IMG/VR virus record: IMGVR_UViG_3300042549_001103
Span: 1 to 61,630 of that record
Length of the DNA stretch: 61,630 bases
Direction: 5' to 3' (one strand)
DNA from: a virus
In this document: positions 9,756-41,478 of the stretch, in pieces
How positions within the stretch are numbered: the first letter of the stretch is position 1
How the letters are laid out: each line of letters begins with the position of its first letter
Translations under genes and position numbers: made by a program
Notes under the pieces: model-generated
Told to the model about the DNA's origin: nothing
Database searches by the model: none
The model's input: the letters and a program-made list of their open reading frames with translations, nothing else

Positions 9756-12700
9756 ATGCCGATCTATTCAATTGAAGGCCCTGATAAACGTATTTATGAC
9801 ATTGAGGGCCCTGAAGGGGCATCTGAACAAGATCTAATTTCCGCTGCGCAGCAATACGCTAAACAGACGCAGAGGCAGGAAAGAGACGAGCGTAGCGCAA
9901 AAGAACTAGCCGAAGCCGACGCTGCCGCGGTAAAAGCAAGAGAAGAGCTAAGTAAGCCAATACCAGAAGGTGGTTTTAAAGCCGCCGCTCGTGCCAGTCT
10001 TGAGCGTGTGCAGGGTGACATTGCTGGTGTTGCTGGACGTGCCGGTGCTGTTGATATTGATACAGCTGAGAAGTTTAAAACCGAAAAAGAAAAACGTGCT
10101 GGGGAGATTTTCCAAGGCACGGAAGATGGTTGGCTAGAATCCCCATGGACTAAATTTAAAGAGACGTTGGGTAGCTCGGTTGGCTACATGGCTGCTCCTA
10201 TTGTCGCTGGTGGCGTGGCTACGCTTGCTGGTGCGTCTGCCCCTATTTCACTCACCGCTGCTGGCTTGGCGTCACTTGCTCAGTTCACGGGTTCAAACCT
10301 GTCTAGGCAGATGCAAGAAAAGGGTCTTGGCTTAGCTGATACCGATCTACTGTCTGCGGGTGCTGCGGCTATCCCTCAAGCGGCACTGGACGTGGTGTCT
10401 TTTAGAATGCTGCCCGGTATTAACCGCATCTTTAAATCTGCTGGTAAAGAGTTATCAGAAGACCAACTTAAAGCTATCGCTCAACGCAACCTGCTAACGA
10501 ACGTAGGTATGAGTGGCGGTAAGATTGCCGGTGTCGAGGGTCTGACTGAAGTTGGTCAACAATTCCTTGAACGCTTACAAGCAGGCATCAGCACAACCGA
10601 TGCAGAAGCACGGGATGAATATTTAGAAAGCCTGATTGGTGGTGCGGTACTCGGTGGCGCTTTCGGCGGTGTAAGTGGTATTGGTGCGCGTGGTCGTGCA
10701 CGGTCAAAGTTAGAAGGTATTGAATCTAGACGTGCAGCGGAGGAAGAAGCTGCTGGTATTACCCCACAATACACAGGGCAAGGGGAGATGTTCCCCACAG
10801 AGTTACAGCAAGCTCAAGAAACTATTGCAGGTATACAAGGCCCTGCTGCACCAGAAGTAACTACTCCCGAACTCACCACTACCCCTGCTGGTGTTGCACC
10901 GGGACAAGGTGAATTATTTGGCCCTGCGTCTGGTGCCCAGCCTGATTTGTTTGGGGATACAATCCCTGCGCGTCAGGAACAGATAGAAGTTGACCCTTTT
11001 GAAGTAAGAGTCAAAGAGTTAACCGAAGAATTCATCGCTGCGGGAGTGCCCCCAAAACAAGCTGCAGTTGTTGCATTCCAACAAGCGCGTAATGAATCTC
11101 GGGATGACACACTCGCCACCATGCAAAGTGGGGTAGGGGCAGATCCTAGACAAGGCGCATTACAGTTTGCGCCCGCCGCACCGGAATCGGTTGCAAGTAA
11201 TCAGCCAATTACCCCCATGCAACGGGAAATGGGTTTTACTGCCGCGGAGTCCCAGCGCGAAGCACAAAAGCAAGCCCAGATAGAACAAATTGCGCGTCAG
11301 GCACAAATTCAAAACCAGCTACAACTTGCCGAAACCGACCTACAAGCTGCGGGGATTACGCCTGCTGCACCTACAGCGTTTCCTGCCGCACGTCAGGGGC
11401 AACCTACCCAACCTCAACAGATTGATTTGTTTAAGCGTGGTGAAGCCCCTAAGCCTTCACGCGGTGAGATGCTTCGTGCAGGAGTTGCACTTGAATCAGA
11501 AGTACCAGCACCTAGTCAACCTGCGGCTCTTATTACTGAAGAATCACTCGATGTACTCAAGCTACCAAAAGCAGCGGCGTTGCGTAAGCGGTTATTGGGT
11601 AAAGACATGAACGATCCGGCGCAGAGCCAGCAAGTCAACACTGAACTTCGTGCTGCACTGCAAAACCCCAACCTGCCGGACGATACTAGACAAGCAATTA
11701 AAGATGTGCTTCAGCAGTCAGAATTTACACGTCAAGACGAGATATTTGGCCCGCGTGGTGGTGTATTACCTCAACCTAAATCCTCAGCACAGGGAGCGCA
11801 AGATGCTAATCAGCGACCTACCCCTAAGCCACCCGCTCAGCCCGGAACAAGTCAGCCGCCTGTGGGAGTGGGTGGTGTGGGCGTCGGCACAGGAGCCGCA
11901 GGAAAGACTGGTACCGGAGGAGTTTCAGGAACTGGAAAGCGAGGATTGGCTGATACTGGTGGGGGAGCTAAATCTGACGCTGCTGGAGCAAAAGGTAAGC
12001 CCGCTACAGTAAGTAAAAAAGACGCCTACGCCGAAGGAGTTCAGTCAGCCAAAGACGGTCAATCCGCGCTAGGTAGCCCTTATCCTGAAGGTACTGCTGA
12101 GCATGAAGAATTTAGTAAAGGTTATTTAGATACTAAATACCCTAGCTCGAAAGCCAAACCAAAAACCGAAGCTAAGAAAGAAGCGCCTAAGAAACCCGAA
12201 GCTAAGAAAGAAGCGCCCAAAGCTCCGGTAGACCCGATTGCCGCACTGGTGCAACAGACTCAAGCAGCGATAGATAAGGCACCGAAGAAAGAAACTACGG
12301 AAGCAGCACCGGTAGCAGCTAAAGGGAAACCAGTTAGCGCGTTTGATGCGCCAATTGATGGAACTGTTAAACCACTTCCTAAAAACGAAAAGTTCGACCC
12401 TCTCATCAACACCGAAAGCGACAAAATTACTCCTCCGCTATCCGCTGCGGTGGAAAAGCTTCTTCGTGCGGGTGATCTTGTCGGTGCGCTGCGTGCGTAT
12501 GCCAAAGAGACTAGGGGTGTAGCTGGGCGTATCGCGATGCTCTTGTCTTCTGTTCTTGGTACTACGAAAGTATTTGTAGTCTCTGATGCCCAACTGAAAA
12601 AGATTATTAAAGATCGCACTGGTGTAGACGCAAATAAAACGGAAGGCGCGTACTTTTACCAAGGTAATGAAATCTTTATCAACGCTGATATTGGTCTAGA

Positions 12701-15700
12701 TGGGCATACGTTGCTACATGAGGCTGTACATGCTGCGACCAAACGGATACTCAGTAACCCAAACCATCCTGTTACTAAACAACTGACTAAGTTGTTTGAC
12801 GACGTAAAAGACAAGCTCGGTAAAGCCTACGGTGCCAAAAGTCTTGATGAATTTGTTGCTGAAGCTTTCGGCAACATGGAGTTCCGTACCGAGCTAGATA
12901 CTATCACGCCATCTGGTCAGCGTATTTCTGCACTGGCGCGGTTCGGTAACATCATTAGCAACATGGTACGCCGCCTTGTCGGTGCACAGCCTAAAGCGTT
13001 GGGTTCGGTAATGGACGAAACCGACCGGCTGATTGCATCTATTATTTCCCCTGCACCAGATGCGGTGTTGGGCATGGGGTACGAGCCTGTTGCGTTCTTG
13101 AACACTGCCGGTAAAGTTAATAAAGCACTCCCCGCGTTTACTGAGCGCACAGTAGATAGCTTCCATAAAGTGTTTACTAGCAGTGTGCCTGACTGGGTAA
13201 AGAAAGCGTTGCGCATGTCGCTGCCAAGTAACGCGCTCGAAGACATTGCTGTTAAGTATTTGCCCGAAGCTCCTGAGTATGAGAAGTTAATTAACGCACG
13301 TAGTGGTGCAGAGCAGAAACTCACAAAGGCGGTCAACGCCTCTCTTACTCGCGCCGAGCAGTGGGCTGCAAAGCAACCACAAGCCAAGATCGACAACTTT
13401 AACAACGTCGTAAACTCCAGTACGCTCAAGCAGGTAGATCCTAGTAAGCCAATGTCAGCGTATGAGAAGGACGCGGAGAAGCTTAAAGCGTGGAAAGAGC
13501 TAGAGCCTAAATGGAAAGCTCTCGGTGTTGATGGGCAAAAGATGTACACCGACTTACGTGACTCGTACAAAACTCTGTATGACAAGATTGCTGATCTACT
13601 TAAAGTCAAGATGGACGGCGAGATGGGTAGTGCCGGTGCCGCAAAAGCCGTTAATGATGCACTGCGCAAAATCATGGACAACGCTGGCAAGATAGAGCCG
13701 TACTTCCCGTTGACCCGTGTGGGTGATTTTTGGTTGGAGTACAACGCACTTGCCCCGGACGGTAAATCTACAGAGAAGTATGTAGAATCGTTTGAGACTC
13801 CCCGTGCCCGTGCCCGTGCTATAGAGGAACTGAAAAAAGATTCTAGCGTAAAAAATATTACGCCGTTCGCTAAGCCGACAATGAAGACTTACCGTAACGC
13901 ACCTAGCGGTTCGTTTATGAGTAGTGTGCTGCAGACCCTAGAGCTAAACAAAGTATCAGACACGACTACCGAAGAGATTATGAATCTGTTCTTAAACGTG
14001 ATGCCTGAGACAGCGTTTGCTCAATCATTTCGGCAACGTGAGGGTGTGTTAGGATTTAACGCAGATGCTATAAGCGCCATGCGTTTGCGCACTCCTGCTA
14101 TCGGGCGTCAGCTAGTGAACCTAGAGTACGGTGCTAAGTTGTCCCGCCTTAATTCTAAGATGCAAGAGTCGGCTAAAGCCAGTAGAGATGACACCGCGAA
14201 AGCGTTTGCGGCTGAGTACGATAAGCGCATTCAGTTAGCAAATAGTCCAGATAACCCAGCATGGTCGCAAGTTAGTAAGACGTTTGCTTTCGGTATGACC
14301 CTCGGGTTTAACGTCTCTTCCGCACTGGTTAACGTAACGCAAATACCACTGGTCGTTATGCCCTATCTGGGTGGTAAATACGGATACGGAGATACTGCTT
14401 CTGCGATAGCTCGTGCAACGCGTGTGTTTATGGGTAGTGGTTTTAGCCGGACAGATAAAGACTTGTTAGGGCAAGATACTGAAGCGCGCGCAGCACCATC
14501 GTTGGAGAACATCGACTTCAGTAAAGCCCCTGCAAAGATGAAACACTACGCAACACTAGCACGACTCGCTGGTGATAACGGTGTGTTTGGTCGCTCGTTA
14601 ACACAGGACATACTGAACGTCGATGGTAGCGTACCCTTACTTGACAAAGTAAATGCGGTGTCTGGGTTTGTGTTTCACCACGGTGAGCGCATGAACCGAC
14701 AGATCGGTATGATCGCAACGTACGACCTCGAACTCAAGCGTATGAAAGATAAGCCTACCGCTCCTGAGAAAGGTATGAATGAGGCTCAGAGGGAAGAAGC
14801 TGCAGCGATAAACGCTATTAATATGACCAACCTGCTTAACGGCAGCTCGTCTACCGCCGGTGCGCCACGTATCGCACAGAACGCGCTTGGTTCGGTTGCG
14901 CTTATGTATAAACGTTACGGCGTGTCTATGTACTACATGATGTTTAAGACAGCACGTGAAGCGTTGAAGTCTCAGGATTCAAAGGTACGAAAAGCCGCGA
15001 TGTTACAGATAGGAGGTATTTTTGGTTCAGCTGCGTTGATCGCCGGAGTGCGTGGCGTACCTATGTTTGGTGTAGCTGCACTTTTATACGACATGGCTAA
15101 AGACGATGACGAAGATGATTTCCGCACGGTCGTAAACAAGTGGGTCGGTGCCACCGCGTACAGTGGTGGGTTAAACGCCATAACTGGACTTGAGATTGGT
15201 TCGCGTGTTGGGTTAAGTGATTTGCTCTTCCGTGACAACAACTCAAAACCTGACCAGTCCACGATCCTATCCATGGTTGAGATGCTTGGAGGCCCTGCAC
15301 TGGGTATTGGATTACGCGCCGAGCGGGGTATAAAGATGATTAACGATGGGGAAGTCTCCCGTGGTATCGAGCAGATGTTACCCGCTGCATTCGGTAACGG
15401 ACTTAAAGCTTTGCGTTACGCCACCGAGGGTGCTACCACTGTGCGTGGTGATCCAATTATGGATGAGGTTAGCGCATGGAACGTTGCGGGTCAGGCGTTT
15501 GGTTTTGCACCTGCCGAATACACTCGACAGCTTGAGATTAACGCTAATGAGAAGGGTAAGGATAAAGCCACAACAGAAGCTAGAACTAAACTCTTGCGTA
15601 AGTTCTACACTGCTACACGCTTAGGTGATTCTTCAGAAGCACAGGATGTCATGGAAGATATTGTGAAGTTTAATTCCAAGCATCCGTCGATTGCGATCAC

Positions 15701-15830
15701 TGGGTCAACAATTAAAGACTCTATGAAAAAACACGCTCAAACATCTATGATGATGCAAAAGGGTGTGGTCTACAACAAGAAGCGGTACTCCGAAGTGATG
15801 CAGAGTCTGTCAGAGTTTAACGAGGATTAA
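9756..15830 (+). CDS. Giant internal virion protein (2024 aa) with HExxH protease motif
   Basis: SD AGGAG precedes ATG. The N-terminus (IYSIEGPDKRIYDIEGPEGASEQDL) is common to large phage internal proteins. Residues 130-260 hold hydrophobic helices (VGYMAAPIVAGGVATLAG). A long Gln/Pro/Ala/Lys-rich linker spans about residues 290-860. A compact region at 890-1080 contains HEAVH (988-992), an HExxH motif, in a setting like other phage polyvalent peptidase domains (FINADIGLDGHTLLHEAVHA). The C-terminal third is helical and resembles LPD38-type polyvalent-protein domains (NALGSVALMYKRYGVSMYYM). It ends the + strand late block, right at the terminator. Likely an ejected core or murein/protein-degrading factor; the activity is inference. 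Confidence 0.65.
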   Translation: MPIYSIEGPDKRIYDIEGPEGASEQDLISAAQQYAKQTQRQERDERSAKELAEADAAAVKAREELSKPIPEGGFKAAARASLERVQGDIAGVAGRAGAVDIDTAEKFKTEKEKRAGEIFQGTEDGWLESPWTKFKETLGSSVGYMAAPIVAGGVATLAGASAPISLTAAGLASLAQFTGSNLSRQMQEKGLGLADTDLLSAGAAAIPQAALDVVSFRMLPGINRIFKSAGKELSEDQLKAIAQRNLLTNVGMSGGKIAGVEGLTEVGQQFLERLQAGISTTDAEARDEYLESLIGGAVLGGAFGGVSGIGARGRARSKLEGIESRRAAEEEAAGITPQYTGQGEMFPTELQQAQETIAGIQGPAAPEVTTPELTTTPAGVAPGQGELFGPASGAQPDLFGDTIPARQEQIEVDPFEVRVKELTEEFIAAGVPPKQAAVVAFQQARNESRDDTLATMQSGVGADPRQGALQFAPAAPESVASNQPITPMQREMGFTAAESQREAQKQAQIEQIARQAQIQNQLQLAETDLQAAGITPAAPTAFPAARQGQPTQPQQIDLFKRGEAPKPSRGEMLRAGVALESEVPAPSQPAALITEESLDVLKLPKAAALRKRLLGKDMNDPAQSQQVNTELRAALQNPNLPDDTRQAIKDVLQQSEFTRQDEIFGPRGGVLPQPKSSAQGAQDANQRPTPKPPAQPGTSQPPVGVGGVGVGTGAAGKTGTGGVSGTGKRGLADTGGGAKSDAAGAKGKPATVSKKDAYAEGVQSAKDGQSALGSPYPEGTAEHEEFSKGYLDTKYPSSKAKPKTEAKKEAPKKPEAKKEAPKAPVDPIAALVQQTQAAIDKAPKKETTEAAPVAAKGKPVSAFDAPIDGTVKPLPKNEKFDPLINTESDKITPPLSAAVEKLLRAGDLVGALRAYAKETRGVAGRIAMLLSSVLGTTKVFVVSDAQLKKIIKDRTGVDANKTEGAYFYQGNEIFINADIGLDGHTLLHEAVHAATKRILSNPNHPVTKQLTKLFDDVKDKLGKAYGAKSLDEFVAEAFGNMEFRTELDTITPSGQRISALARFGNIISNMVRRLVGAQPKALGSVMDETDRLIASIISPAPDAVLGMGYEPVAFLNTAGKVNKALPAFTERTVDSFHKVFTSSVPDWVKKALRMSLPSNALEDIAVKYLPEAPEYEKLINARSGAEQKLTKAVNASLTRAEQWAAKQPQAKIDNFNNVVNSSTLKQVDPSKPMSAYEKDAEKLKAWKELEPKWKALGVDGQKMYTDLRDSYKTLYDKIADLLKVKMDGEMGSAGAAKAVNDALRKIMDNAGKIEPYFPLTRVGDFWLEYNALAPDGKSTEKYVESFETPRARARAIEELKKDSSVKNITPFAKPTMKTYRNAPSGSFMSSVLQTLELNKVSDTTTEEIMNLFLNVMPETAFAQSFRQREGVLGFNADAISAMRLRTPAIGRQLVNLEYGAKLSRLNSKMQESAKASRDDTAKAFAAEYDKRIQLANSPDNPAWSQVSKTFAFGMTLGFNVSSALVNVTQIPLVVMPYLGGKYGYGDTASAIARATRVFMGSGFSRTDKDLLGQDTEARAAPSLENIDFSKAPAKMKHYATLARLAGDNGVFGRSLTQDILNVDGSVPLLDKVNAVSGFVFHHGERMNRQIGMIATYDLELKRMKDKPTAPEKGMNEAQREEAAAINAINMTNLLNGSSSTAGAPRIAQNALGSVALMYKRYGVSMYYMMFKTAREALKSQDSKVRKAAMLQIGGIFGSAALIAGVRGVPMFGVAALLYDMAKDDDEDDFRTVVNKWVGATAYSGGLNAITGLEIGSRVGLSDLLFRDNNSKPDQSTILSMVEMLGGPALGIGLRAERGIKMINDGEVSRGIEQMLPAAFGNGLKALRYATEGATTVRGDPIMDEVSAWNVAGQAFGFAPAEYTRQLEINANEKGKDKATTEARTKLLRKFYTATRLGDSSEAQDVMEDIVKFNSKHPSIAITGSTIKDSMKKHAQTSMMMQKGVVYNKKRYSEVMQSLSEFNED

Positions 15831-15915: not shown

Positions 15916-16182
15916 TCACAGCAATCTCCAGAAACGTACCCCCCAGCGCTTGTCTTCAATACGCTCCACAGCGGTAAGCTTCCACCCTTGCTCCTGCGCT
16001 ATCGCATACATCTGGTGCTTTAACTTAGCCGTGTTGATAGCAGGCACAAACAAAGACGAACCAACAAGAAAAGTACCCCAGTCAACGTGCATTTGTACGC
16101 CATCTGGGGCGATGACTTTACTCGTCGGTTGATTCCTTAAGAACGGGTGCCGCGTTAACGTAAGAACTTTCTTTGTCGTCAT
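15916..16182 (-). CDS. Unknown protein, 88 aa, last gene of the replication block
   Basis: The frame overlaps the end of the primase-helicase gene by 65 bp, so the true start could be later (ATG for residue 31 is the next choice), though neither start has a clear SD. The mature-looking part (VIAPDGVQMHVDWGTFLVGSSLFVPAIN, then KHQMYAIAQEQGWKL) has the look of a small sensor or DNA-binding fold with a C-terminal RWGVRFWRLL. I do not recognise the family. A terminator follows at 15858. Confidence 0.55.
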   Translation of the reverse strand: MTTKKVLTLTRHPFLRNQPTSKVIAPDGVQMHVDWGTFLVGSSLFVPAINTAKLKHQMYAIAQEQGWKLTAVERIEDKRWGVRFWRLL

Positions 16183-18958
16183 CCATGAAATCCGTAAAGT
16201 CTAATAACCATACATCGGCAGCGGGCAAATTCACGTGTGTACCCTTACCCATACGCTGCTTAGCTTTTTGAGCTTTCATACGTCCGGTTCTAAGGCTATC
16301 GGTAAACGCGTTGTAATTAATCTGCTGCTTAACGCACCAAGACTTAAGAGGTTTGACTATTAAGAACATCTTCTTTACGTCGTACTCGTACCGACCAATC
16401 ATAGCACCACGTGGGATGGCATCAGGGATGTTAATGTCCTTACGCAGATCCTGAGTACTCTTGATGCGTAAAACGTTGTTGTAGTTCTCAGCCAAGTAAT
16501 CACTTAGGATGCTTTCGGTATCGCCCGCCATTGTTTCCATCTCAACGTTTGAGTCTTGCATAGTGCGAATAATCCACCGGAATAATGCTGCGGTATCGTA
16601 CTGTGTAAGATTTAACTTGTTGGCAAGAATCAATCCGGTCAACGCCGACGCCGCTTGTGCAGACCAATAACGATTTTCAGCCTTCAATCCCGCTGCGACG
16701 TCGATTCGTTTCTGTGTAGCCTTCAGTAGTTCACCTACTTCATCTACGTTGTTCATCACGTACTGCACAAATATAGGCCCTGCATGACCGTAGTGATCCT
16801 TGATGTCGCTACTGAATTCGTCGGTTTCGGACTTAGTTGGGAACACAATCTTCGGTGCGCGGTGCGATAGAACCCGTTGCGCTTCAGCTTTTGGGAGTGC
16901 CTTATACGTTGAGATACGCTCAAGCATATCGGTGTTGCCGTTAGTCGCGCAGTTGTTCTTCCATGGCATACCACGCAGACGCTCGACGTTACTTTTGACA
17001 GACATCCGGTTGCGCTGAAACCCACTTGGAATTTGATAAACAAAGTCACTCAAATCTTTCGGTGCGGTGTTAGTCATCTCGTCAAAGAAGCACGGTAGGT
17101 TTTTCATTACCTCCATACGGTTCATCTTCGAGTTCATTGTGTCGCGCTCGTTCATCACGAGGATTTCTGGATCGCCCCATACCGATGCACCTGCGTACAT
17201 GGCAGTGGATTTTCCTAAGCCGCTATCCTTACTGTGCAAGTGAAACACGGAACTATTAAGCGGCAGATATTGAATCAATACCGAACCGAACGAGAGCCCC
17301 ATCATGTATTGATGCACTTCAAAACCCGGACGATTGTAGAAGTTCGCCGTCTTAGCCCACCCTTCCAATGTTCCTTTCGGTGCGAACGCAGGGAATAACC
17401 CAAGCGTACTACTAGAAGGTGGATTGACTTCAACTCGGTCTTTAAATATTTCAGTACCACCAAGCACAAAGGATGATAAGTTATCATCCGTCCACCCAAA
17501 CTGGCGTCGTGCTTCAGCAGCGGTTGTAGTCATTTGTAGGTCGTTGACCCATTTAGAAACGTAATTCATAAGCTCATCCATTTTAATTAAACCAACACCC
17601 TGCATAGCCATATAACGCCGAAATTCTTCCTTAGCGTAGATTGCTGTTAGTGGTACCGTGAACTGTCGCACCCCATCTTTCGGGAGGTGTAGCCGCATAA
17701 CAACCGCTTCGCCTATTTCAGGATCGCGGAGTCTGTTTACAACGTATAAATCATTGTGATACACAGGTACTTCAATTTCTTCGTCTTCCTTACGTACAAC
17801 TTTAAATATGCCCCCATTGACACCCCGACGATATGGCTCAGGGTATTTGGGGATAAGAAACTTCTGCAGGGGAGCGCTTGGTAGATCGAGTACTTTCTCT
17901 TCTACTTCTACGGGTTCCTCTGATACTTCCAACTCACGCCCAAGTGTGATCGGGCTTTTAAACTTACCTTTGTTTACACAGTCTCCACATATACCGGGGT
18001 TGTATCCGTTAAACGTCTCACACGTGTAAGGCCCTCGTATAGCATCTGCTTTGCGCTCCGTCGAATCCGGTGAGTAGTCTGGGTGCTTAGAAGATATTTT
18101 ATGTACAGCTTTATCACGATCAACACAGAAGGCAGCGATGGATAATCCTGCTCTCCACATTGGTTCCGGCATTGTGGTCTGATTCTCATAAACCCACTTC
18201 AACTGATTACAGCCCTTACCGTCAATGGTCTTGAGCATGATCGTCTTAAACCGACTACGAAAGCTCCCCATCATCTGGTCAAGTACTGGATCAGGCCCTC
18301 GTGGGGTAAACGACTTCTTACGTAAGAACGAACCCGCGCCAAGCAAATCTCGAAACGTCTCGAACTCTACTACTGGTGCAATTTCCCCAATAAACTCCAC
18401 GAAACGTGGTGGTGTATCTTTATGGTTATGTGTACCCGGCACACGTAACACCCGTGCCGAATCGGACGTAACAGCGGGGTCAGCCCGCAGTCCATGTTCC
18501 GTGCAAAGTTCTTTTAGTCGCTCGGCAACAGGCACCCATGTCTCACGTAAAACAGGTTCAGCCAATGCCCAATATACGTGTATACCACGACCTGAATTAA
18601 TAAGCGTAGGTTTTGGTAACTTAAGTTCTTTACAGAAAGCCCGCAGACCTGTCAGCGCAGCCGACTGTGTATCGTAGTCTTTGTTTGCACCGCAATCTAG
18701 ATCTAAAAAGAACGAACGTAATTGATGCACATTATTGTTGCGTCGTGAGCCGGATTCTACAAAAGTAGCAAGCGCAAAGTAAGCGTTACGTCCTGTGGTA
18801 TCAAACGCTTGCGCACTGTCTATGGCATCACTCAAATCTGTATAGAATTTTTGTTTTACGTCTGGGTCACGTTTTTCTCCATGTAGTTCTTCTATTCCGG
18901 TAACGCAGTAAAATCCCTCGTCACCAAGTATTGTCCTAAGAAATCTCTTTGTGTCCAT
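16118..18958 (-). CDS. Primase-helicase fusion (AEP/PrimPol-like plus superfamily 3-type helicase)
   Basis: In this 946-residue protein, residues 1-200 look like an archaeo-eukaryotic primase domain: FFLDLDCG (acidic pair D86/D88), NSGRGIHVYW with H127, and SARVLRVPGTHNHK. Residues 313-327 carry Cys residues (C313, C324, C327) of a probable zinc finger. The helicase half has Walker A DSGLGKST (K583) and a Walker B-like LPCFFDEMTN about 60 residues on. It would make primers and unwind DNA at the fork, working with the polymerase and SNF2-like helicase encoded upstream. The start follows an 81 bp gap without clear SD. Confidence 0.8.
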   Translation of the reverse strand: MDTKRFLRTILGDEGFYCVTGIEELHGEKRDPDVKQKFYTDLSDAIDSAQAFDTTGRNAYFALATFVESGSRRNNNVHQLRSFFLDLDCGANKDYDTQSAALTGLRAFCKELKLPKPTLINSGRGIHVYWALAEPVLRETWVPVAERLKELCTEHGLRADPAVTSDSARVLRVPGTHNHKDTPPRFVEFIGEIAPVVEFETFRDLLGAGSFLRKKSFTPRGPDPVLDQMMGSFRSRFKTIMLKTIDGKGCNQLKWVYENQTTMPEPMWRAGLSIAAFCVDRDKAVHKISSKHPDYSPDSTERKADAIRGPYTCETFNGYNPGICGDCVNKGKFKSPITLGRELEVSEEPVEVEEKVLDLPSAPLQKFLIPKYPEPYRRGVNGGIFKVVRKEDEEIEVPVYHNDLYVVNRLRDPEIGEAVVMRLHLPKDGVRQFTVPLTAIYAKEEFRRYMAMQGVGLIKMDELMNYVSKWVNDLQMTTTAAEARRQFGWTDDNLSSFVLGGTEIFKDRVEVNPPSSSTLGLFPAFAPKGTLEGWAKTANFYNRPGFEVHQYMMGLSFGSVLIQYLPLNSSVFHLHSKDSGLGKSTAMYAGASVWGDPEILVMNERDTMNSKMNRMEVMKNLPCFFDEMTNTAPKDLSDFVYQIPSGFQRNRMSVKSNVERLRGMPWKNNCATNGNTDMLERISTYKALPKAEAQRVLSHRAPKIVFPTKSETDEFSSDIKDHYGHAGPIFVQYVMNNVDEVGELLKATQKRIDVAAGLKAENRYWSAQAASALTGLILANKLNLTQYDTAALFRWIIRTMQDSNVEMETMAGDTESILSDYLAENYNNVLRIKSTQDLRKDINIPDAIPRGAMIGRYEYDVKKMFLIVKPLKSWCVKQQINYNAFTDSLRTGRMKAQKAKQRMGKGTHVNLPAADVWLLDFTDFMDDDKESSYVNAAPVLKESTDE

Positions 18959-27449: not shown

Positions 27450-27599
27450 TTACATGCAAGTGGTTGTGCAGTTTGTTCCATAGCAGCACGTAGTGCATAC
27501 CGTCATACGTCCGCCAGAGATCACCGTGTTGGTGACACAGTTTGCATAAGCAGCTGTAGTAACTGTTGCAAAAATAATTCCCATCAATAGTTGTTTCAT
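27450..27599 (-). CDS. Exported Cys-rich microprotein, 49 aa
   Basis: ATG is coupled by an ATGA overlap to the stop of the DGQHR protein. Residues 1-19 (MKQLLMGIIFATVTTAAYA) form a classic Sec signal peptide with an AYA cleavage site. The mature part of 30 residues has six Cys (in NCV, TVCTTCC, TNCTTTC) and many Thr, fitting a disulfide-bonded periplasmic peptide. Phage early operons seldom encode such a product. No family is recognised. A role at the envelope, such as superinfection exclusion, is only a guess. Confidence 0.65.
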   Translation of the reverse strand: MKQLLMGIIFATVTTAAYANCVTNTVISGGRMTVCTTCCYGTNCTTTCM

Positions 27600-28435
27600 T
27601 CTAAATCCTCCGATTCACCCATGTTAATTTTCTTTTGGAGGTTCTTGTTAACTTCTTTCATTACACCCTCCGCCCATATACGTTGACCGCGCCTCTCGTG
27701 ATACTCCACTGCTTTATCCGCGGCTTTCATAATACCCACCGCCCCGATCTTTTTCAGTCGAGTTCGTAAACGAAGGTCGGTTAAATCAACCTCTGCATTT
27801 TTATGGATGTACCACAAACTACCCAATACTTTTTCATGTAAAGGGACATTACCGCTAATATCAATTGCCGCATCAAGTACGGCTTCCAACATAGCGGCAT
27901 CTTCTTTAGTTCGATTCAGCGCCCAAGCAACACACTTCAAGTCTCGTGCCTTATTCGCTGTTGAACTAACTCGGATATTTAAGCGTGAACAGATACCGTT
28001 AAACTTTACCGCTGTCGGATCATCTGCTGCAAGTGCCGCACGATACTTATCTGTACTAAACACAGGGCGACGTCCAGTGTTGGCGTCTAGAAATCCTTGT
28101 GCCTCTTGCGCGATACTAGCGGACTCAAACACTAAGCAAGGTAACGTCTTAATATCTGAACGTCGTTTAGCTGCTGCAACTCGGTGCTGCCCGTCAATCA
28201 CCCAAAATACTCCATTGCGTTTACCGACAATGATTGTGCCACAAGCAAACCATGACCATGCGCTTGCCATGCTAACTGCTTTGGACTCAACCAAATTACG
28301 TTGGTACGCAGGGGACACTTGCAACAACCCCTTGTTGAGCATACCGAATCGACCCGGCTCATCTTTGACTGTCCACCCGTAAATCTTTACCTTGTCCTGT
28401 ATAGAACCGTTAATGCCTACACGTGTTTCACTCAT
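27596..28435 (-). CDS. DGQHR-type ParB-like protein (DUF6551-like)
   Basis: In this 279-residue protein, VIDGQHRVAAAKRR (81-85 is DGQHR) is the hallmark of ParB/Srx-fold proteins related to DndB and phage DGQHR proteins. LLQVSPAYQRNLVESK upstream and LDANTGRRPVFSTDKYRAAL downstream fit the DUF6551-like branch. ParB-like folds bind nucleotides or act as nucleases; the precise role in phages is unknown. A chromosome-partition function is unlikely because no ParA is present. Confidence 0.75.
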   Translation of the reverse strand: MSETRVGINGSIQDKVKIYGWTVKDEPGRFGMLNKGLLQVSPAYQRNLVESKAVSMASAWSWFACGTIIVGKRNGVFWVIDGQHRVAAAKRRSDIKTLPCLVFESASIAQEAQGFLDANTGRRPVFSTDKYRAALAADDPTAVKFNGICSRLNIRVSSTANKARDLKCVAWALNRTKEDAAMLEAVLDAAIDISGNVPLHEKVLGSLWYIHKNAEVDLTDLRLRTRLKKIGAVGIMKAADKAVEYHERRGQRIWAEGVMKEVNKNLQKKINMGESEDLE

Positions 28436-36968: not shown

Positions 36969-36997
36969 ATTATACCCCAAGTGGCATACTATGTCAA
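36969..36997 (-). promoter_or_regulatory. Sigma70 promoter (TTGACA, 17 bp, TATAAT)
   Basis: On the - strand a perfect -35 (complement of 36992-36997), 17 bp spacer and perfect -10 (complement of 36969-36974). A second TTGACA lies about 18 bp further upstream. It should be a very strong host-polymerase promoter for the small early genes. Confidence 0.85.
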
Positions 36998-37018
36998 GTT
37001 TTGACAAATAGTGTCAAG

Positions 37019-37100
37019 GATGTGCTTTCCGAAGATGACGGGGTTCACAATGTGTAATGGAGTGTCGTAGATGTGCTTTCCGAAGATGACGGGGTTCACA
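37019..37100. repeat. 31 bp direct repeat, two copies
   Basis: A 31 bp sequence beginning GATGTGCTTTCCGAAGATGA is present identically at 37019-37049 and 37070-37100 (period 51 bp), just upstream of the strong promoter. It could be a regulator-binding site or a recent duplication. Confidence 0.85.
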
Positions 37101-37153
37101 GAGTGAAAGTTCTTGTAAAGTTCTGTATGGGGTGTGTGCAAGTCATTGATATG

Positions 37154-37462
37154 GAACGAATGTTCGAAAGTAACAATGTTCTCAGGTAATACCTGCCGGA
37201 AAGTGGTGTCCACGTTTTTGAGGCAAAATTAGAACTTTCGCAGGACTTCAAAAAGGGGCAAAAAAAATTCCTAGGTTAAAAGGCAATCTCAAATAGAACA
37301 TTAGAACATTCATAATATATTAATATAACTTACTAAAACACAAACTATGGTTTACTAAATTGTGTCAAGAATGTACGTAAAACTACGTAAAGTGGCGTAA
37401 AACTAATGTTCCTAACAAATGGAACATTCGAAGAACTTTAGAACATTTGAAGTGGAACATTC
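37154..37462. repeat. GAACATT repeat cluster with AT-rich segment; candidate replication origin
   Basis: GAACATT occurs at 37296-37302, 37304-37310, 37422-37428, 37441-37447 and 37455-37461 and inverted at 37405-37411. AATGTTCC/GGAACATT at 37405-37428 is an 8 bp inverted repeat. Further AATGTTC copies lie at 37159-37165 and 37175-37181, the former in GAACGAATGTTC. Between them 37311-37380 is very AT-rich, and ACGTAAAA-like steps repeat at 37375-37403. Iteron-like repeats beside an AT-rich stretch in a gene-free region are typical of origins; it could also be an operator cluster. Confidence 0.5.
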
Positions 37463-37507
37463 ACTTTTCCAACACACCATAACTCTGCATAGTTTAAATT
37501 TAGCCTG

Positions 37508-37790
37508 CGCTCGTCGCGACTCGTAAAACTATCATTTACCTACCCCGCAGCCTTAGAGGCGTGTGGCTCTCCGCGGTGCTGTCTTGCAGCCTTAGAGGCG
37601 TGTGGCTCTCCGCGGTGCTAAAAAACACGACCCTCAAAAAAACCACGCTCGTCGCGACTCGTACAACTATCATCGCCCCGCTAGCCTTAGAGGCGTCTAG
37701 CTCTCCGAGGTGCTACCCGCTAGCCTTAGAGGCGTCTAGCTCTCCAGCCTGCTCAAAAACTGCGCTCATCGCGACTCGAAGAACTATCAT
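37508..37790. repeat. Ordered A-B-B-A-B-B-A repeat array
   Basis: Repeat A (28 bp, beginning CGCTCGTCGCGACTCG and ending ACTATCAT) is at 37508-37535, 37646-37673 and 37763-37790. Repeat B (34-35 bp, with GCCTTAGAGGCGT and CTCTCC) is at 37547-37580 and 37586-37619 (identical) and at 37680-37714 and 37719-37753 (near identical); each B pair has a 39 bp period. B contains the small hairpin GCCT-TAG-AGGC, A contains the palindrome TCGCGA. GC content is above the surroundings. A + strand frame across it (37561-37983) encodes only the repeats and has no SD. Confidence 0.85.
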
Positions 37791-37948: not shown

Positions 37949-37980
37949 AAAAAAACCCGCAAGGTTTGCACCAAGCGGGC
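37949..37980 (-). terminator. Rho-independent terminator
   Basis: On the - strand CCCGC, a 14-base loop that can pair further (TTGGTGCAAACCTT), GCGGG, then seven T (37949-37955). It ends the operon 38936-38001. Confidence 0.8.
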
Positions 37981-38000
37981 TAAGTTAAATGTAGTGTGGG

Positions 38001-38186
38001 TTAACTAAAGCATTCAAACCTTTTAGCGTTAACGTTATTTATACCCTCATAACAGTAAACACGTGAACCGGATTCTAAGGGTTTAATCCAAAAAACGTCC
38101 TGTCTTTTTCTACCAGAAATATCGCCTTTGGTTTGCCACAATAGCAGATTAGATAAGTGCGCGTCAGAGAATTTAATTTCTTGCAT
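38001..38186 (-). CDS. Unknown protein, 61 aa
   Basis: ATG with SD AGGGG 8 bp upstream. MQEIKFSDAHLSNLLLWQTKG, SGRKRQDVFWIKPLESGSRVYCYEG; basic middle and a beta-like C-terminus. Not recognised. It follows the membrane peptide gene by 14 bp and precedes the terminator. Confidence 0.65.
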   Translation of the reverse strand: MQEIKFSDAHLSNLLLWQTKGDISGRKRQDVFWIKPLESGSRVYCYEGINNVNAKRFECFS

Positions 38187-38200
38187 GGTAAACCCCTAAG

Positions 38201-38299
38201 TTATTGTGCCAAAATATCGACAATCCAGTCCATAAAAAACAAGATCATTCCAGCAATCCAAACAAAACAAAAAACATCTAAGAATTTTTTAAGCATCAT
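38201..38299 (-). CDS. Membrane micropeptide, 32 aa
   Basis: Two adjacent ATGs at 38299 and 38296, then KKFLDVFCFVWIAGMILFFM, a single transmembrane helix with a basic N-terminus, ending DWIVDILAQ. It lies between two same-strand genes with normal operon spacing. No good SD; an 8 bp hairpin (38304-38323) sits just before the start. A gene is likely but not certain. Confidence 0.45.
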   Translation of the reverse strand: MMLKKFLDVFCFVWIAGMILFFMDWIVDILAQ

Positions 38300-38303
38300 T
38301 TAG

Positions 38304-38323
38304 CGGACGGGTTTCCCCGTCCG
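38304..38323 (-). terminator. Strong hairpin after the 201 aa gene (attenuator-like)
   Basis: CGGACGGG, loop of 4, CCCGTCCG: a perfect 8 bp GC-rich stem 8 bp after the stop codon at 38331. Only a weak T-rich tail follows on the - strand, so it may reduce rather than stop transcription, or protect the upstream message, and it covers the ribosome site of the micropeptide gene. Confidence 0.55.
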
Positions 38324-38330
38324 TCCTGTT

Positions 38331-38936
38331 TTAGTTGAGAGGGATCATACCTTGCGCGGACATAATACGTTTCACGCAGTCCGCTACATCAAAATTAGCA
38401 CCTTCCATCTTTTGCAGTTTGACAATGACGGCAGCAAGTGCGGCGTGAATCTTTTGGTTTTCAGTTTTGACCGATTCGGATCCCTCGGTTTCCGTTTCAG
38501 TACTGATAGCCTCGCCGCTCTTGTCCAGTCCGTCAATGGCAAACAAGTGAGTCCGAATGCGATTTAAGTACGTATCCTTTTTGGTAAGTAAATTAGTGCG
38601 TTCCGCTTTTGTTGCAAGGTCAAGGGTTTTTGCATCCTTATGATACAGGGCATAATCTGACTTGGAGAAACCCGCGATAATAGCGTCAATCGTTTGGGTA
38701 CGCGCCGATTCGGATCCACCATTGGTAATAGTCATAAGCATATGACCGGTAAAACCATCGGCGTGCAAACCCTCGGAAATCGTGCGAAGGTTTTTGGCCT
38801 GTTTGGCCTCGACAGTCATATCAGTACTAACGTAGGACATGATGGCGGAACGGGTAGTACTGGACATAATTACATCGGCGGGTAAGAGCGTTACTGAAGT
38901 AAGAGCCGATACCAGGGAAGAGGCTTGCTTTTTCAT
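38331..38936 (-). CDS. Unknown protein, 201 aa, first gene of the rightmost early operon
   Basis: SD AAGGA lies 9 bp before ATG, with a consensus promoter at 38990-39018. The first 25 residues (KKQASSLVSALTSVTLLPAD) are mildly hydrophobic but lack a convincing cleavage site. Ser/Thr-rich, mainly helical (AEERTNLL-like charged parts, IHAALAAVIVKLQKMEG). One Cys. I do not recognise a family. Its own strong promoter and palindrome h suggest abundant early expression. Confidence 0.75.
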   Translation of the reverse strand: MKKQASSLVSALTSVTLLPADVIMSSTTRSAIMSYVSTDMTVEAKQAKNLRTISEGLHADGFTGHMLMTITNGGSESARTQTIDAIIAGFSKSDYALYHKDAKTLDLATKAERTNLLTKKDTYLNRIRTHLFAIDGLDKSGEAISTETETEGSESVKTENQKIHAALAAVIVKLQKMEGANFDVADCVKRIMSAQGMIPLN

Positions 38937-38989
38937 AACTGTACATCCTTATAAGAGTTAGAGTTACTGACTAATTTGTCAGTAAAGAT

Positions 38990-39018
38990 ATTATAGATCA
39001 AATGTCATATTGTGTCAA
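38990..39018 (-). promoter_or_regulatory. Sigma70 promoter (TTGACA, 17 bp, TATAAT)
   Basis: Perfect -35 (complement of 39013-39018) and perfect -10 (complement of 38990-38995) with 17 bp spacing, 54 bp upstream of the 201 aa gene. Confidence 0.85.
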
Positions 39019-39139: not shown

Positions 39140-39344
39140 TATTACGCTCAAACAATTACCTTTCCTAAGCGTTCCTTACCCAGTAACTAAGCATAGCTTA
39201 ACCCCACCTCCTTAGCCCACACAGAACACCCCCCGGTGCAAAACAAACGCCCATACTAAAAAATTTTATATAAAAAAATATTGCGTTCTAAACACTAAGA
39301 AGTTACACTCCGTGCAACGACCTCACGGTGCGCAGAAGGATCTT

Positions 39345-39947
39345 ATGGCGATGTTGCTTACGCCCGACATTGGGGTGCCTCTACTACCGCAACAACCGAT
39401 TACTGACTTGTACGAACGAGTCAAGGCCACTGCGCACACCGCAGATATTCTTGCTGGCCTCGGAATGCAGATCGACCCACCTAGCAATTCAGATAATGAT
39501 ACGGCTGCAACACTAGCTGCGGCGTACGCTGCTGACCCTGAAAAGACTTCCCGTGCGGTATCCAACACCCGTGCGGCGACTATGACTCCTGCTTCACTTA
39601 TCCAGACGCGCAGTATTCTCGATGAGTTCGGTACGGCTGTTGTGCGCCATAGTGTTGAGATCCGCCATCTGGTAACAAATAAGTTACTAATAGAGTCGGA
39701 GAACCCAGACCCCCGTGTGCGCATTCGTGCGTTGGAGCTGCTGGGCAAGATTAGCGATGTGGGGCTCTTCACAGAACGCAGTGAGGTGCTGATTACACAC
39801 CAGTCTACAGATGACTTGCGTAAGAAGCTACGCGAAAAATTTAACCGCATACTAGATAATGACAGGCCAGATGTGGTTGATGCCGTCATGGTGGGTGGCG
39901 ATGTGATCGACCTAGACAAAGAACTAGGTATTGTGCCAAATGAGTGA
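39345..39947 (+). CDS. terS: Terminase small subunit
   Basis: ATG at 39345 has SD AGAAGG 5 bp upstream (200 residues); a GTG at 39312 would add 11 residues with poor SD. The protein is helical and charged (TSRAVSNTRAATMTPASLIQ, RIRALELLGKISDVGLF, STDDLRKKLREKFNRIL), as expected of a DNA-recognition subunit, and directly precedes the large subunit with an 8 bp overlap. Assignment rests mainly on position and this pattern, common in environmental podophages. Confidence 0.75.
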   Translation: MAMLLTPDIGVPLLPQQPITDLYERVKATAHTADILAGLGMQIDPPSNSDNDTAATLAAAYAADPEKTSRAVSNTRAATMTPASLIQTRSILDEFGTAVVRHSVEIRHLVTNKLLIESENPDPRVRIRALELLGKISDVGLFTERSEVLITHQSTDDLRKKLREKFNRILDNDRPDVVDAVMVGGDVIDLDKELGIVPNE

Positions 39948-41478
39948 AGCAATAGATTTTAGTCTTGCTGAAATTGAGCTGATGCTACAGCGACTGGATG
40001 AGTTTTCCCTCGAAGAACAACTCGAAATAGAACAACTTGCCGATGTGCTGGAACAACGCAAACTTGCACAGACCTGCCGAAATGACTTAATTGAGTTCTG
40101 TAAGCACATGGATCCCAACTATAAAGTTGGACGACACCACCGCAGGCTTGCGGATCTGCTAATGAAGATGGAACGCGGCGAAGAAGACCGCATCGGGGTA
40201 TCAGTACCACCTCGTCATGGTAAGTCTCAGATGGTTTCCATCTATTTTCCTGCATGGTACCTAGGGCGTAACCCCGATAAGAAGGTGCTGATGGTCTCGC
40301 ACACGGCTGATTTGGCTGTGGATTTCGGTCGCAAGGTGCGTAACATCGTCGATAGCCCTGCGTATAAGGCAATTTTCCCAACAGTCACACTTGCGGCAGA
40401 CTCTAAATCAGCGGGACGCTGGAACACCAACATGGGTGGTGAGTATTTTGCCTGTGGTGTGGGCGCTGCCTTGGCGGGTCGTGGTGCACACTTCCTAATT
40501 GTTGACGATCCGTTCTCAGAACAGGACGTGCTAAATGGTAACTACGAGGTTTTTGACCGAGTGTACGAGTGGTTTACGTACGGTGCGCGTACGCGTCTGA
40601 TGCCACAAGGTAAAGTTGCTATTGTGCACACCCGCTGGCACCCAAATGACTTGATCGGGCGCTTAGGTAAGGACATGGGGCGCATTACGAACTCAGATCA
40701 GTACGAAATGTTCGAGTTTCCAGCCATATTTAATGAAAATACCGACAATGAGAAGGCTTTATGGCCTGACTTCTACGATTTAGAGGCACTGCACCGCACA
40801 AAAGCGTCTATGCCGTTGTTCCAATGGAACGCGCAGTTCCAACAATCCCCTACTGCAGAAGAAGGTGCACTTGTTAAGCGGGAATGGTGGAAGCGTTGGG
40901 ACGCGGATGACCCACCGAGCTGTGAGTATGTCATTATGACGCTCGATGCCGCTGCTGAAAAGAACACCAGAGCTGACTTCACTGCACTTTTGACGTGGGG
41001 GGTCTTTAATGACGAGCGATATACCGATGGCTCAAGCCATATAATCTTGCTTAATTCGATAAATGTCAGGGTAGAGTTCCATGAGCTCAAGGAGCTTGCG
41101 CTTAGAGAGTATAAAGAGTGGCAACCCGACTCGTTTATCGTGGAAAAGAAGTCTAGTGGCACACCGCTCTTTCAAGAACTGCGCAGAATGGGTATCCCCG
41201 TCTCCGAATTCACTCCACATAGGGGTACAGGCGATAAAATTGCACGTATTAACGCAATATCAGATATATTTAGATCCGGTATGGTGTGGTACCCAGCAGG
41301 GCGCAAGTGGGCAGAAGAGGTTGTGGAGCAGGTAGCTGCTTTTCCAGCGTCAGATCACGACGACATGGTTGACTGCGTGTCCATGGCACTTGCGAGATTT
41401 CGCAGTGGTGGGTTCATACGACTAGATACAGATGCACAAGACGAAATCATGCGCCCACGGGTAGCGGCTTACTATTAA
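39940..41478 (+). CDS. terL: Terminase large subunit (packaging ATPase-nuclease)
   Basis: ATG at 39940 (512 residues) overlaps the small subunit; a TTG 9 bp earlier is less likely. Walker A PPRHGKS (90-96) and Walker B FLIVDDP (D189, D190), followed by the RNase H-like nuclease with MTLDAAAEK and late acidic residues in SDHDDMVD. It pumps DNA into the procapsid through the portal and cuts it. The family is P22/T4-like, consistent with headful packaging and a circularly permuted assembly. Confidence 0.95.
   Translation: MSEAIDFSLAEIELMLQRLDEFSLEEQLEIEQLADVLEQRKLAQTCRNDLIEFCKHMDPNYKVGRHHRRLADLLMKMERGEEDRIGVSVPPRHGKSQMVSIYFPAWYLGRNPDKKVLMVSHTADLAVDFGRKVRNIVDSPAYKAIFPTVTLAADSKSAGRWNTNMGGEYFACGVGAALAGRGAHFLIVDDPFSEQDVLNGNYEVFDRVYEWFTYGARTRLMPQGKVAIVHTRWHPNDLIGRLGKDMGRITNSDQYEMFEFPAIFNENTDNEKALWPDFYDLEALHRTKASMPLFQWNAQFQQSPTAEEGALVKREWWKRWDADDPPSCEYVIMTLDAAAEKNTRADFTALLTWGVFNDERYTDGSSHIILLNSINVRVEFHELKELALREYKEWQPDSFIVEKKSSGTPLFQELRRMGIPVSEFTPHRGTGDKIARINAISDIFRSGMVWYPAGRKWAEEVVEQVAAFPASDHDDMVDCVSMALARFRSGGFIRLDTDAQDEIMRPRVAAYY

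Follow-up and report, generated by a model that had tools for sequence, protein, structure and literature searches.

A two-family repeat array adjoining a candidate replication origin in a 61.6-kb phage record

The window analysed here is the whole of IMG/VR record IMGVR_UViG_3300042549_001103 (61,630 nt), and the alternating A-B-B-A-B-B-A array that the initial annotation had placed at 37508-37790 is real and sited as given there. All units lie on the + strand, namely A1 (37508-37535; CTCGTAAAACTATCAT), B1 (37549-37580), B2 (37588-37619), A2 (37646-37673; CTCGTACAACTATCAT), B3 (37683-37714), B4 (37722-37753) and A3 (37763-37790; CTCGAAGAACTATCAT), the B coordinates being those of 32-nt cores. 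A1 and the additional copy A2 are of a first type and A3 is of a last type, just as B4 carries a last-type end (AGCCTGCT). The motifs and spacing of the earlier description hold up: TCGCGA occurs in three of three A copies and the GCCT-TAG-AGGC inverted repeat in four of four B copies, B1 matches B2 at all 32 nt, and the B spacing is 39 bp within each pair. Tandem repeat detection with TRF (period 134, score 342) ranks the array first in the record, where the runner-up scores 90, and the best 78-nt self-match at offsets of 30-300 across the whole record is again the array (62/78 as against 53 for the runner-up). A CRISPR array, which needs one repeat family and unique spacers, can be dismissed, as had been proposed, since two families recur here in fixed order and the spacers are themselves repeated. 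Nor is there a convincing gene across the array, again as previously judged, because the 134 nt by which it differs in length from its relatives (see below) are not divisible by three.

Together with a group of short iterons the array sits between two leftward (- strand) signals: a terminator-like hairpin with U-tract (37950-37981) and a sigma-70 promoter with a 12/12 consensus match (36969-36997), the latter serving leftward genes beyond the iterons. The hairpin was read from the sequence (the terminator scan does not accommodate so long a loop) and is kept in relatives; a leftward unit running from 38936 to 38001 ends at it, so that leftward transcription would be kept out of the island. Promoter prediction gave none of the island's own and none reading into the array. 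Genes diverge from the island and a GC-skew minimum lies nearby, although skew and gene direction are confounded. Beside the leftward promoter the window also carries two 48-nt direct repeats (37010-37108) that are 88% alike at a 51-bp spacing. Eight perfect CCTTACA-N(1-2)-TGTAAGG palindromes (29440, 31862, 33246, 34409, 35346, 36906, 37911 and 39035) are found only within 29-39 kb of the window, and most of them immediately precede the ribosome site and start of a leftward gene. The L031/L035 clade has CCTGACCATGGTCAGG at comparable places, and both may represent a clade-specific operator or leader hairpin.

Left of the array, an AT-rich peak (37291-37360; 81% A+T over 70 bp) forms a candidate unwinding element, which itself holds two + strand GAACATT sites (37296, 37304) and is flanked by two sets of GAACWTT iterons. 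The left set (37106-37181) has - strand sites at 37106, 37117, 37159 and 37175, and the right set (37405-37461) has + strand sites at 37422, 37433, 37441 and 37455 plus one on the - strand at 37405, so that the sites are mostly - to the left of the peak and mostly + to its right. Where the rest of the record would predict 0.04 GAACATT sites, an interval of 321 bp that was picked after the fact has eight. This two-set inverted layout is clearest in the relatives L031, L035 and L036, where it is nearly perfect with 24-bp periods; the iterons of the window's clade are sparser and less regular, and more distant relatives (L063, L066, L101) have GAAC-core sites around the AT peak. When all of IMG/VR was searched with the 24-bp iteron pattern, eight contigs were found, every one a relative of the window phage and each with a pair of direct repeats immediately beyond the right iterons.

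A candidate initiator for these iterons is a 946-aa primase-helicase (16118-18958, - strand) that combines a primase-like part with a DUF927 domain (PF06048, E=1e-20). It resembles the solved SaPI and SCC helicases in the PDB (8tch, E=1e-13; 5dgk, E=4e-6) and by these likenesses belongs with the SaPI Rep family of initiator helicases; its AlphaFold model (mean pLDDT 45) is too poor for fold comparison. The protein is a plausible GAACATT-binding factor, though we infer this by analogy with SaPI Rep. The primase-helicase is absent from DSL-LC04 and pelagiphage HTVC023P, two of the closest named phages in terms of terminase, and a cultured phage with such an origin was thus not found.

How widely is the array shared? 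Exact scans of IMG/VR with B and with a 22-nt A pattern each gave the same four contigs; a shorter A pattern had 25 matches, most apparently by chance, which the fuller A and B patterns reduced to these four. All four are close relatives with A-B-B-A in the same flanking DNA, and the window is longer than them by 134 nt, that is, by one extra A-B-B module. In the window and in every close relative seen, the first A is CGTANAAC and the last A CGAAGAAC, and the last B ends in AGCCTGCT while other B copies end in GCGGTGCT or GAGGTGCT. Since A and B ends are thus position-specific across close relatives, the copies have not simply been homogenised by pair. Furthermore, the two B-pair stretches of the window are 79% alike, and the divergence between its two modules exceeds that between the window and its relatives at the array locus: the extra module is no recent exact duplication. 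Hence the pairwise duplication put forward in the initial annotation stands as far as duplication goes, but what was duplicated is the A-B-B module rather than the B pair alone, and the modules are 79% alike. Because the copies keep position-specific sequence and the extra module is no recent exact duplicate, misassembly of identical copies, the kind of artefact that had been named as a potential refutation, is an unlikely source of the array. The other potential refutation, a host-derived or widespread intergenic repeat, is countered by exact searches in which A and B matched IMG/VR relatives only, with no match in named phages or plasmids nor in bacterial genomes (one genome per species, 84,980 species).

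Further out, B is absent from every relative with an 83-89% identical terminase, and A-type repeats are found in the place next to the right iterons. Two A copies, 89-91 bp apart, are present in each of L034, L039 and L040, and a matrix built solely from the A copies of the window's clade ranks them top at 18.9-26 bits; elsewhere in the loci it scores at most 7.6. A repeat pair about 81 bp apart (L031, L033, L035, L036) or three repeat copies (L045) occupy the same place with partly similar sequence. The A matrix misses these, and their homology to A would rest on position, layout and partial likeness. In the more distant L066 and L101, iterons and an AT peak occur without a clear A pair, from which it follows that A is dispensable for some such origins. 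One further locus, L113, fits the two-copy A pattern but lacks both iterons and a repeat family, and was put down to chance. A therefore appears to be the conserved element, present as 2-3 direct copies just outside the right iteron set of relatives, with B confined to the window's clade; B and the extra module look like clade-specific expansions.

Conservation of the DNA points the same way as position. Compared with three relatives, identity is 100% at 37471-37507, 96-100% in A1 and A3 and 95-96% in the iteron region (37290-37470); in the same relatives terL reaches 86-92% and the adjacent 201-aa gene 79-83%. Greater conservation than in these genes, both in the stretch running from the iterons to the end of A1 and in A3, suggests that selection acts on the island DNA itself.

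Taken together, the array adjoins what is, judging by sequence, a candidate origin, and of the options listed in the initial annotation, being part of the origin is the one favoured by the iterons, the AT-rich peak, the SaPI-type initiator and the conserved position. So to our minds, the array probably forms an accessory, outer part of the phage's replication origin. In such an origin the DUF927 primase-helicase would bind both iteron sets, open up the AT-rich DNA in the manner of SaPI Rep and be loaded there. The A elements, as putative sites for the initiator-primase or for another replication protein, might then fix where synthesis or priming starts, or else limit or control firing; that A is a primase site placing the start of synthesis is a possibility we raise with more doubt than conviction. 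B pairs, for their part, may be spacers or modulating elements which in one clade change the spacing or provide extra sites and which would grow and shrink through recombination between repeats. These biochemical roles of A and B are our reading of their layout.

The closest parallel is found in PICIs, whose origins always place an AT-rich region between two sets of iterons, an organisation said to be shared by no other known bacterial replicon (PMC6092414), and whose SaPI Rep, apparently in the form of two hexamers, contacts origin iterons with its C-terminal domain (PMC7581432). Like the SaPIbov1-type rep-ori, the window has two short-iteron sets around an AT-rich region and a DUF927-family initiator helicase, with a primase present in both cases, albeit fused in the window phage. 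The window, however, is no satellite: its 61.6 kb represent a phage that encodes a terminase, a portal and a DNA polymerase of its own, and beyond the right set of iterons it carries the additional A/B repeats. Moreover, the SaPI origin is just downstream of rep, whereas the window's initiator gene (16118-18958) and its origin (~37.1-37.5 kb) are ~18 kb apart. As the origin does not directly follow the initiator gene, we class it as working like a PICI origin rather than as a member of the PICI group.

Two other replicons share separate aspects of the layout. RSF1010-type origins consist of iterons and AT-rich DNA with adjacent, separate ssi sites for a dedicated primase. The window resembles them in having iterons, AT-rich DNA and separate sites alongside, but each strand there has one ssi site in the form of a large inverted hairpin, whereas the A elements are direct repeats and not long hairpins. 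In phage P4, accessory direct repeats (crr) are needed in cis with ori and lie kilobases away from it. P4 and the window thus have in common accessory direct repeats and one fused primase-helicase initiator, which in P4 is the alpha protein (PMC7145576); in contrast to crr, the A/B array adjoins the iterons, and the likeness drawn between the initiators is that of fusion.

Among competing explanations, a packaging site is the main rival to an origin: the repeats would be bound by small terminase, like cosB or pac repeats, and mark the start of packaging. Repeated small-terminase sites near terS are common among phages, and the island lies ~1.5 kb upstream of a candidate small-terminase gene (39312-39947; large terminase, 39931-41478). 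A three-gene leftward unit with its promoter (38001-39018), however, separates the array from terS, and the array goes with the iterons rather than with terS. In addition, homologues of the window's two end regions are ~3 kb apart in L004, so the record ends are arbitrary and there is no linear genome with ends here, all of which makes packaging unlikely. Little credence is also due to a selfish or neutral tandem expansion, in which function would be limited to the A pair and B and the extra module would be drift. Restriction of B to one clade and the variable module number are what such a scenario would produce, but 25 columns are invariant among ten copies of the B core, the last-copy ends are position-specific across relatives, and nearby genes drift more.

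That the array is transcribed and its B hairpins act as RNA structures, another option raised initially, draws on the short inverted repeat in every B and on the conserved position and core sequence. Against such a noncoding RNA, folding energy is no better than that of shuffled sequences on either strand (z 0.57 and 0.43), the window has no Rfam match at gathering scores, no promoter into the array is predicted, the stem is invariant with (by eye) no compensatory change at variable positions, and the hairpin is missing in lineages without B; we regard it as quite improbable. A partition centromere or site-specific recombination site has least to commend it and seems highly improbable. Direct repeats near an origin do look like plasmid centromeres, and a protein with a ParB-like domain is encoded at 27596-28435 (ParB-like/DUF6551), yet ParA (PF13614), tyrosine recombinase (PF00589) and resolvase (PF00239) domains are absent from the record in searches whose controls worked.

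The layout of the candidate origin, previously described as unique to satellite islands, appears here in full-size phages. A PICI-like layout with a related initiator in an uncultivated 60-kb-class phage family bears on the source of the replicons of satellite islands, and the A elements are a concrete candidate for a new part of PICI-like origins. One may speculate, tentatively, that a full-size phage family uses a PICI-type origin plus an undescribed element (paired A, in one clade with B pairs) which is read by the fused primase-helicase or a partner for first priming or firing control, and that the origins of PICIs and of phages like these may have a common ancestor. Window and close relatives, with A-B-B-A-B-B-A and A-B-B-A, respectively, offer a natural, ready-made comparison.

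Other features came to light in the window and its relatives. A 2024-aa protein (9756-15830 of the window) matches DarB-like antirestriction in its C-terminal part. Near the junction that corresponds to the island, L063 (6159-6330) has an 81-bp tandem duplication containing AGTGATAGTAGTGATAGTTTT, and at the same junction of a 66-kb relative (L130, G001; 2540-2640) a long inverted repeat surrounds an N run beside an AT-rich stretch. The arrays upstream of terS in L043, L054 and L057 lie beyond the leftward gene and were left out as not being the same element. Those of L043 (7018-7280) and L057 (7018-7250), which precede the small-terminase gene, consist of GC-rich direct repeats of another kind (CATCACGCCACGCGC) and are perhaps better candidates for a packaging-site array than the A and B repeats of the window.
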